Origin: Isoperla grammatica
Lineage: Eukaryota; Arthropoda; Insecta; Plecoptera; Perlodidae
Reading direction: 5' to 3'
NCBI GenBank assembly: GCA_945910005.1
Contig: OX246739.1
Coordinates: forward strand, 34,437,608-34,501,607
DNA: 64,000 nt
A model generated the notes under the pieces. That model saw only the letters and a program-made list of their open reading frames with translations, was not told the origin of the DNA and did no database searches. Positions 1 through 3,143 of this stretch are shown here, one piece after another (positions within the stretch are counted from its first letter, which is position 1; every line of letters starts with the position of its first letter). The translations under genes were made by a program, and so were the position numbers.

Positions 1-3000
1 AGAGCATAGTACAACAAACAAACTAGTGGCGCTATCTGGGAGATATACATGGGAACTAGAGACGTGTTGAGTCCTGCACACAGAGAGCATAGTACAACAA
101 ACAAACTAGTGGCGCTATCTCGGAGATATACATGGGAACTAGAGACGTGTTGAGTCCTGCACACAGAGAGCATAGTACAACAAACAAACTAGTGGCGCTA
201 TCTCGGAGATATACATGGGAACTAGAGACGTGTTGAGTCCTGCACACAGAGAGCATAGTACAACAAACAAACTAGTTGCGCTATCTCGGAGATATACATG
301 GGAACTAGAGACGTGTTGAGTCCTGCACACAGAGAGCATAGTACAACAAACAAACTAGTGGCGCTATCTCGGAGATATACATGGGAACTAGAGACGTGTT
401 GAGTCCTGCACACAGAGAGCATAGTACAACAAACAAACTATTGGCGCTATCTCGGAGATATACATAGGAACTAGAGACGTGTTGAGTCCTGCACACAGAG
501 AGCATAGTACAACAAACAAACTAGTGGCGCTATCTCGGAGATATACATGGGAACTAGAGACGTGTTGAGTCCTGCATACAGAGAGCATAGTTCAACAAAC
601 AACCTAGTGGCGCTATCTCGGAGATATACATGGGAACTAGAGACGTGTTGAGTCCTGCACACAGAGAGCATAGCACAACAAACAAACTAGTGGCGCTATC
701 TCGGAGATATACATGGGAACTAGAGACGTGTTGAGTCCTGCACACAGAGAGCATAGTACAACAAACAAACTAGTGGCGCTATCTCGGAGATATACATGGG
801 AACTAGAGACGTGTTGAGTCCTGCACACAGAGAGCATAGTACAACAAACAAACTAGTGGCGCTATCTCGGAGATATACATGGGAACTAGAGACGTGTTGA
901 GTCCTGCACACAGAGAGCATAGTACAACAAACAAACTAGTGGCGCTATCTCGGAGATATACATGGGAACTAGAGACGTGTTGAGTCCTGCACACAGAGAG
1001 CATAGTACAACAAACAAACTAGTGGCGCTATCTCGGAGATATACATGGGAACTAGAGACGTGTTGAGTCCTGCACACAGAGAGCATAGTACAACAAACAA
1101 ACTAGTGGCGCTATCTCGGAGATATACATGGGAACTAGAGACGTGTTGAGTCCTGCACACAGAGAGCATAGCACAACAAACAAACTAGTGGCGCTATCTC
1201 GGAGATATACATGGGAACTAGAGACGTGTTGAGTCCTGCACACAGAGAGCATAGTACAACAAACAACCTAGTGGCGCTATCTCGGAGATATACATGGGAA
1301 CTAGAGACGTGTTGAGTCCTGCACACAGAGAGCATAGTACAACAAACAAACTAGTGGCGCTATCTCGGAGATATACATGGGAACTAGAGACGTGTTGAGT
1401 CCTGCACACAGAGACCATAGTACAACAAACAACCTAGTGGCGCTATCTTGGGGATATACATGGGAACTAGAGACGTGTTGAGTCCTGCACACAGAGAGCA
1501 TAGTACAACAAACAACCTAGTGGCGCTATCTTGGGGATATACATGGGAACTAGAGACGTGTTGAGTCCTGCACACAGAGAGCATAGCACAACAAACAAAC
1601 TAGTGGCGCTATCTCGGAGATATACATGGGAACTAGAGACGTGTTGAGTCCTGCACACAGAGAGCATAGTACAACAAACAACCTAGTGGCGCTATCTTGG
1701 GGATATACATGGGAACTAGAGACGTGTTGAGTCCTGCACACAGAGAGCATAGCACAACAAACAAACTAGTGGCGCTATCTCGGAGATATACATGGGAACT
1801 AGAGACGTGTTGAGTCCTGCACACAGAGAGCATAGCACAACAAACAAACTAGTGGCGCTATCTCGGAGATATACATGGGAACTAGAGACGTGTTGAGTCC
1901 TGCACACAGAGAGCATAGTACAACAAACAACCTAGTGGCGCTATCTTGGGGATATACATGGGAACTAGAGACGTGTTGAGTCCTGCACACAGAGAGCATA
2001 GTACAACAAACAAACTAGTGGCGCTATCTCGGAGATATACATGAGAACTAGAGACTTGTTGAGTCCTGCACACAAGAGAGCATAGTACAACATAGAAACT
2101 AGGTGCGCTATCTCGGAGATATACATGGGAACTAGAGACTTGTTGAGTCCTGCACACAGAGAGCGTAGCACAACAAACAAACTAGTGACGCTATCTCGGA
2201 GATATACATGAGAACTAGAGACTTGTTGAGTCCTGCACACAGAGAGCATAGCACATCAAACATAGTCTCGACTTAGGCCAGGATTGGTGACACTACGCCA
2301 ACGTATGAAACCTAGAATTGCGCACAATTTTTGATTCATGAGGCCGACTGGAGCTATAACCAGAGCCAATAACCGTTCTAACTTTTTCGTGGGCAATCCT
2401 CAACCCGATCCTCTAACCTAACCGAATTTTGTGGGATGTCAGGTAGCTGGGCAAAGTCACTTTGATTCAGTGTCACCCATCCTGGCCTTATCCGACTCCC
2501 CAACAAACATACTAGTGGTGCTATCTCGGAGATATACATGAGAACTAGAGACTTGTTGAGTCCTGCACACAGAGAGCATAGCACAACAAACAAACTAGTG
2601 GCGCTATCTCGGAGATATACATGGGAACCAGAGACGTGTTGAGTCCTGCACACAGAGAGCATAGTACAACAAACAAACTAGTGGCGCTATCTCGGAGATA
2701 TACATGGGAACCAGAGACATGTTGAGTCCTGCACACAGAGAGCATAGTACAACAAACAAACTAGTGACGCTATCTCGGAGATATACATGGGAACTAGAGA
2801 CGTGTTGAGTCCTGCACACAGAGAGCATAGTACAACAAACAAACTAGTGGCGCTATCTCGGAGATATACATGGGAACTAGAGACGTGTTGAGTCCTGCAC
2901 ACAGAGAGCATAGTACAACAAACAACCTAGTTGCGCTATCTCGGAGATATACATGGGAACTAGAGACTTGTTGAGTCCTGCACACAGAGAGCATAGTACA

Positions 3001-3143
3001 ACAAACAAACTAGTGGCGCTATCTCGGAGATATACATGGGAACTAGAGACGTGTTGAGTCCTGCACACAGAGAGCATAGTACAACAAACAAACTAGTGGC
3101 GCTATCTCGGAGATATACATGGGAACTAGAGACTTGTTGAGTC
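1..3143 (-). repeat. Glut1: 83-bp minisatellite built from a Glut1 3' splice site plus exon start, about 35 copies
   Basis: About 35 head-to-tail copies of an 83-bp unit, continuing past the left edge of the window and interrupted once at 2265-2503. Read on the minus strand, each unit is 33 bp of intron end (containing TACTATG, then CTCTCTGTGTGCAG) followed by 50 bp of exon. The exon part begins GA-CTC-AAC and encodes [17 protein letters not shown] when joined to the last base of the preceding exon (4228-4352). That is the conserved loop of GLUT transporters just before TM5, containing the PMYISEIAP motif. Every copy loses exon homology after the APL codons and runs into the next intron end. 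The first acceptor lies at 3143/3144. The exon copy that continues into the rest of the transporter must lie left of position 1. Because 83 is not a multiple of three, reading through one unit boundary gives a TAG stop about 33 residues after the acceptor. Copies differ by a few substitutions. The unit is seen directly; its origin from Glut1 is inferred from the protein match and splice phase. Confidence 0.93.
2265..2503. mobile_element. 239-bp MITE-like insertion inside the 83-bp array
   Basis: This unrelated 239-bp sequence interrupts the array. It carries 20-bp inverted repeats at 2275-2294 and 2469-2488 (core GGCCAGGAT, then GGTGACACT) with one mismatch, and weaker pairing continues outwards. 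On both sides the array reads CAAACATA (2257-2264 and 2504-2511), whereas other units read CAAACAAA. This suggests an 8-bp target-site duplication. An 8-bp duplication is typical of hAT-like elements, but the extreme ends do not match well enough to assign a superfamily. There is no coding capacity. Confidence 0.65.

Follow-up and report, generated by a model that had tools for sequence, protein, structure and literature searches.

The analyzed stretch of DNA, here referred to as the window, comprises 64,000 nucleotides of the stonefly Isoperla grammatica (C7:34437608-34501607). From the same assembly 80 kb to its left were added, and positions in this flank are given as negative window positions. 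The locus carries a Glut1 gene on the minus strand and a large tandem array which reads leftwards toward the Glut1 exon here named exon D. The exons were placed by homology, with human GLUT1 as query, and by their splice borders. The Glut1 model consists of the nine exons found and does not include the first and last coding exons or the untranslated ends (Table 1).

Joined at their AG/GT borders, the nine exons gave a single frame of 468 amino acids without a stop. This frame matched the Sugar_tr profile with 452.5 bits over profile positions 3-452 of 452. Judged by its sequence, the Glut1 copy at this locus is apparently intact and shows no sign of being a pseudogene.

Arrays across a splice boundary were present in two of the nine Glut1 exons (A and D), and in six others, exon E among them, a boundary array was absent. 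The intron just before exon E contains, at window -18801 to -18858 (C7:34418806-34418749), a diverged copy of 58 bp from the interior of this exon (89.7% identity). It is single, does not span the acceptor and was not counted as an array. The last Glut1 exon found is followed by imperfect repeats directly 3' of its donor; a second GT[AG]AG was not found in the 360 bases read past this donor.

Table 1. Glut1 exons and splice-boundary arrays. Plain numbers are window positions.
Feature	Position	Strand	Details
Exon A, real copy (GLTFFLSYTILAAVLGMLQFGYNTGVINAPEL)	7118..7213	-	donor GTGAGT
Exon B (NIENFMKDVYKDRYG..)	5650..5810	-	homology and borders
Exon C (KGGLLLNNV..GRFIIGVNC)	4228..4352	-	donor GTAAGT; ends with one residual base; precedes the array and the real exon D as their splicing partner
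Exon D, productive copy	-16664 to -16834 (C7:34420943-34420773)	-	171 nt, donor GTGAGT
Exon E	-18912 to -19019	-	homology and borders
Sixth Glut1 exon found	-19411 to -19598	-	homology and borders
Seventh Glut1 exon found	-20128 to -20340	-	homology and borders
Eighth Glut1 exon found	-24188 to -24391	-	homology and borders
Ninth Glut1 exon found	-25183 to -25322	-	homology and borders
83-bp acceptor array at exon D, part within the window	1..3152	-	continues to -16713 (C7:34420894), 236 units in total
212-bp MITE-like element inside the array	2276..2487	.	terminal inverted repeats GGCCAGGAT(T/G)GGTGACACT
Second Glut1 array, exon A	7163..7538	-	95-bp unit, 3.9 copies; acceptor plus ~51 nt from the start of exon A
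SLC36-like amino-acid-transporter exon array	neighbouring DNA		158-bp unit, 16 acceptors; Aa_trans E 1.5e-11
NRF-domain exon array	neighbouring DNA		10 acceptors; NRF E 3e-14
Acyltransferase-like gene, acceptor array	L017		4 copies; E 0.0001 and 0.0024 for two Pfam matches that fall short of the curated cut-off
Acyltransferase-like gene, donor-side array	L017		12 GTAAGT donors, 69-71 bp apart
Myosin exon array	contig C1		3 acceptors; E 1.9e-40

Some further features were noted. A near-perfect long palindrome (GTCGACCCCTACACCTAGGGG...), a hairpin of MITE-like appearance, was seen by eye at window ~11200-11330, and a TATG microsatellite of 75 copies spans 58404-58704. COX1 of contig C603 (515-aa query) is 100% identical at 100% coverage to that of Isoperla grammatica, and two other Isoperla species, the next ones listed, reach 99%. 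In the assembly, COX1 gave 25 matches on several contigs besides the mitochondrial contig. Most of them carry in-frame TGA or other stops, and they are consistent with nuclear copies of mitochondrial DNA.

The array at exon D was detected by TRF as an 83-bp period at window 1-3152, where it scored 4997, and the window holds 35 occurrences of GCAGGACTCAA between positions 3147 and 77. Each unit combines an intron end of 32-33 nt (TACTATG followed by CTCTCTGTGTGCAG) with approximately 50 nt of exon start, in line with the original prediction. The predicted number of about 35 units is correct for the window; for the entire array blastn of the window and the left flank gave 236 units over ~19.9 kb, with the left end placed by TRF. 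A productive copy had been expected past the left edge of the window, and the extension to the left located it. The final (236th) unit reads on directly into the authentic exon D, unlike the other, cut-off copies, here named decoys, and the donor GTGAGT follows 171 nt downstream of its acceptor. The intron between exons C and D measures 20,891 nt and is almost wholly array, with 1,084 nt between the exon C donor and the first decoy. The position of the 212-bp element matches a 330-bp gap between neighbouring array units.

For the comparison of units 235 of the 236 matches were scored, one being dropped as incomplete. Over the aligned part a unit carries on average 1.03 variants relative to the consensus. 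The consensus is matched without any difference by 105 units, and 62 unit types were distinguished. Runs of unit types recur as blocks, as segmental duplication would give, and these recurring blocks point to presumed past expansion within the array. Substitutions per site amount to 2.72 for the intron part, against 2.53 for the exon part. Among the distinct exon substitutions 6 are synonymous and 23 non-synonymous; since 39 and 105, respectively, are possible, the decoys show no sign of coding constraint. The acceptor AG is kept in all 235 scored units, which says little because close to half of all positions in the unit are invariant.

Exon C ends with one residual base and joins the array acceptors in phase, in agreement with the original prediction. 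A strict search identified 227 acceptors, the remaining nine units missing the search word and being left out. Splicing to 226 of these leads to a stop, and the last strict acceptor alone keeps the frame open through exon D. The stop expected about 33 residues downstream was found for the majority (184 of 227, at codon 33), with 42 acceptors stopping elsewhere (22 to 118 codons). The claim of at least 35 near-identical 3' splice sites holds true as well: 198 of the 226 decoys share all of the final 13 intronic nt with the real site. Local site sequence is therefore unlikely to decide the choice of acceptor. No donor of the form GT[AG]AG (GTAAG or GTGAG) was found in the scanned array stretch, which contains seven weaker donor-like matches (GT[AG]NG[AT]). 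Skipping of exon D would preserve the reading frame, its length being 171 nt.

Other classes of repeat were considered and rejected. Recursive (ratchet) splice sites would need AG|GT, which is absent from all 227 strict acceptors, each being followed by GA. Tandem alternative or mutually exclusive exons do not apply, as the units end inside the exon and lack a GTAAG or GTGAG donor. A coding repeat is not compatible with a unit of 83 nt, which is not a multiple of 3, and with one open path among 227 strict acceptors.

In total, six acceptor-side arrays and one donor-side array spanning a splice boundary were found on the chromosome-scale contigs C7 and C1 (Table 1). In the second Glut1 array, at exon A, there are four acceptors and the last copy is the real exon. 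Two of the four are open, the penultimate copy being in frame as well; its use could possibly give a protein with 32 extra residues. One acceptor is open in each of the other acceptor-side arrays: the last of 16 in the SLC36-like gene, the last of 10 in the real frame of the NRF gene, one of 4 in the acyltransferase-like gene, and one of 3 in the real frame of the myosin exon, which was picked because its repeat showed in a table of 85 matches. A search with Acyl_transf_3 gave one weak match. In the donor-side array the first of the 12 donors alone leads to the next exon with no stop on the way. As in Glut1, the authentic boundary of these genes is the copy attached to the exon body, although in part this follows trivially from tandem duplication. 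In the genome table of Aa_trans matches (E up to 0.001) the real exon of the SLC36 array is present and its decoys are absent; such tables therefore miss arrays.

Two further observations concern an amino-acid transporter and myosin. An 82-bp tandem array at positions 610-1009 of L043 (C7:35134685-35135748) runs from the stop-codon end of the last exon of an amino-acid transporter onward, and its first copy is the real C-terminus of this transporter. At C1:33475044-33479396 six myosin-head matches follow in a row, with profile starts at 377-379 and ends at 435-476. These resemble the alternative exons of muscle myosin heavy chain in Drosophila.

Within 254 kb of contiguous DNA 19 merged arrays were recorded (period of at least 40, score of at least 150), and at least six of these span a splice boundary. 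Among the 13 others seven were viewed in translation, two in the window (18174-18398 and 46234-48429) and five further left, and no exon-border array was recognised by eye in these seven, the exon-border status of one of them, a 123-bp array at L017 1818-2055, being undecided. The array at 46234-48429 consists of 21 copies of 105 bp. Since 105 is divisible by 3, one of its minus-strand frames is open over long distances with 35-residue repeats and has some stops, and the array is probably non-coding.

The chance of five boundary arrays in 18, a count that omits the given exon D array, is P = 0.0002-0.016 if 40-110 exons and 100-bp units are assumed, and P = 0.053 for 150 exons, the exon number being a guess and the region non-randomly chosen. 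These values suggest an enrichment of arrays at splice boundaries. Against an enrichment speaks that splice-site arrays were found in none of 10 amino-acid-transporter exons with 400-bp flanks that were not chosen for repeats; the 10 were taken from the top of 40 listed Aa_trans matches, omitting rows 1, 2, 6, 7 and 9. In these exons there was one array across a stop codon and one small repeat outside the exon. For five blocks of 10 kb spaced along C7 (L026-L030) the coverage is a TRF scan. The bias toward the acceptor side is 6 to 1 in the final count and not significant; an earlier 7 to 1 had given p = 0.07.

It could be speculated that a mutational process in this stonefly lineage favours exon boundaries for tandem arrays, far above the expectation from minisatellite density, and that exon definition keeps the genes readable. 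We put this forward tentatively and rather doubt it; the 10 transporter exons and the six Glut1 exons free of boundary arrays speak against it. If it were true, series of equivalent splice sites would be planted in genes, and the Glut1 array would be the extreme outcome.

The array at exon D is most likely a neutral, tolerated feature, a very large minisatellite of the mirage type in an apparently intact stonefly gene. Its repeat unit spans the intron/exon boundary, the units carry splice signals including the AG of all scored copies, and the authentic exon D stands intact with its GTGAGT donor at one edge of the array. As to length polymorphism and somatic instability, which belong to mirages as well, the recurring blocks of the one assembled haplotype point to presumed past expansion. 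The origin may be pictured as follows. The intron's 3' end would have been duplicated in tandem along with roughly 50 nt from the start of exon D, and the duplicate would then have expanded to ~236 units by unequal exchange or slippage. With the extra copies placed behind the upstream exon and ahead of the intact one, the gene could stay functional.

In exon definition the splicing machinery follows a donor-proximal rule for the acceptor. Here it would pair the downstream donor with the nearest acceptor, which is the sole complete exon start. On decoys without a good donor no exon could be defined, and the entire array would leave as part of the large intron. Since the decoys lack GTAAG and GTGAG, the donor-proximal rule would find the real exon D. 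We infer from this arrangement that splicing would be correct and that exon definition would be its cause. Tolerated extra copies of a mirage minisatellite, removed as a whole through the donor-nearest acceptor, are in our opinion the probable explanation.

This explanation is supported by the anatomy of the array, the open frame of the nine exons, the frame outcomes of the decoys and the lack of donors in the array. The missing coding constraint, the internal blocks and the recurrence in other genes argue in the same direction, as does the regular splicing that reportedly proceeds undisturbed in amphioxus genes with mirages. Against it stand the seven weak donor-like matches, the possible in-frame skipping of exon D and the exon A array with two of its four acceptors open. 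Moreover, use of the last donor in the donor-side array could yield an intron of 90 nt, possibly the preferred one under intron definition.

If the first transcribed acceptor was used instead, or exon D was skipped, the allele would yield little normal transporter. The distances would favour such an outcome, since the exon C donor is separated from the first decoy by 1,084 nt and from the real exon by 20,891 nt, as would the fact that exon D can be skipped in frame. However, the frame has remained open throughout the nine exons found, a sign that selection probably still acts on the gene, and we regard this outcome as unlikely. The original prediction had also raised a splicing switch or sink for Glut1 dosage. 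Such a functional device would tune the Glut1 output, part of the transcripts joining a decoy acceptor, stopping mostly after 33 codons and being degraded. The close match of the decoys to the real site, the retention of AG in every scored unit and the stops behind 226 of 227 strict acceptors are in line with this idea. On the other hand, the intron and exon parts of the units show no difference in constraint, similar arrays are present in unrelated genes, and the amphioxus counterparts are reportedly spliced normally (PMC3087553, PMC3902484). A Glut1-specific switch or dosage sink is thus unsupported and in our view very improbable.

The array, or its length, could furthermore be an assembly artefact. 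The genome report gives 25.55 Gb of HiFi data in 2.94 million reads with a mean of ~8.7 kb, which is shorter than the ~20-kb array (PMC13033136), and the recurring blocks of unit types could hide mis-sizing. The 62 unit types in structured order speak against an artefact, as do the smaller counterparts of the array, which at 376 bp to 2.6 kb fit within the mean read, and the consensus quality reported as QV 55.3 (PMC13033136). An artefact is hardly to be expected, above all for the short arrays; the number of 236 units is uncertain, since the average HiFi read does not span 20 kb. That the locus holds a decayed pseudogene, the normal Glut1 lying elsewhere in the genome, was rejected as extremely improbable. 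For this reading no supporting point was found; the Sugar_tr search scored only 9 of 415 candidates. The copy at this locus, to which this verdict refers, has canonical borders in nine exons, neither stop nor frameshift, and a full-length match to Sugar_tr.

With the tolerated mirage as the preferred reading, Glut1 offers a natural test of splice-site choice. About 235 near-identical 3' splice sites with a branch-like motif and a pyrimidine-rich stretch lie ahead of one real exon. As the local site sequence is nearly constant, the array separates position from strength in the choice of a 3' splice site, and first-come, exon-definition and distance models predict different results here. It is suggested that gene predictors and variant callers would meet such arrays.

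Several known systems can be compared with the Glut1 array. Muscle myosin genes contain tandem mutually exclusive exons, which likewise place several similar coding units in a row. Those exons are complete and have their own donors, whereas the Glut1 decoys are cut-off exon starts without GTAAG or GTGAG. The human gene IFI6 (6-16/G1P3) reportedly contains a minisatellite with multiple splice donors and, as far as its description goes, resembles the Glut1 array in offering several splice sites from a minisatellite. It differs in concerning the donor side of one human gene and, going by the title of the report, in providing donors for the transcripts, i.e. sites that are used.

Human segmental duplications contain internal tandem repeats at exon-intron boundaries, by which splicing can be altered and introns can arise (PMC2812944). 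Intron gain by tandem duplication of AG/GT sites is known as Rogers' model, cited in PMC3087553. The repeats of the human duplications, as presented there, modify gene structure between paralogs; in the sequence of the Glut1 array no new intron or exon was seen.

The closest counterparts are the 'mirages', minisatellites spanning intron/exon boundaries which were described in amphioxus genes (PMC3087553). Data on Adh3 and RT-PCR of globin genes are said there to suggest undisturbed splicing, and TnC and PGBD5 are further amphioxus cases (PMC3902484). In these accounts the mirages of Adh3, BflGb6, BflGb9, TnC and PGBD5 are, like the Glut1 array, boundary-spanning repeats, often with splice signals, and acceptor-side as well as donor-side forms are common to amphioxus and Isoperla grammatica. 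An insect mirage was not recognisable from titles and abstracts among the open-licence papers listed and may exist in print. Amphioxus is a cephalochordate with RT-PCR evidence, whereas the stonefly is an insect whose arrays are known here from sequence alone. The sizes given for amphioxus are 6 and 3 units in the two haplotypes of BflGb6 and 3 x 108 bp in PGBD5, compared to ~236 units and 20 kb in Glut1. The kind of array is thus already known, and the Glut1 case is far larger and located in an insect. The seven splice-boundary arrays suggest that the mirage phenomenon is broader than amphioxus.
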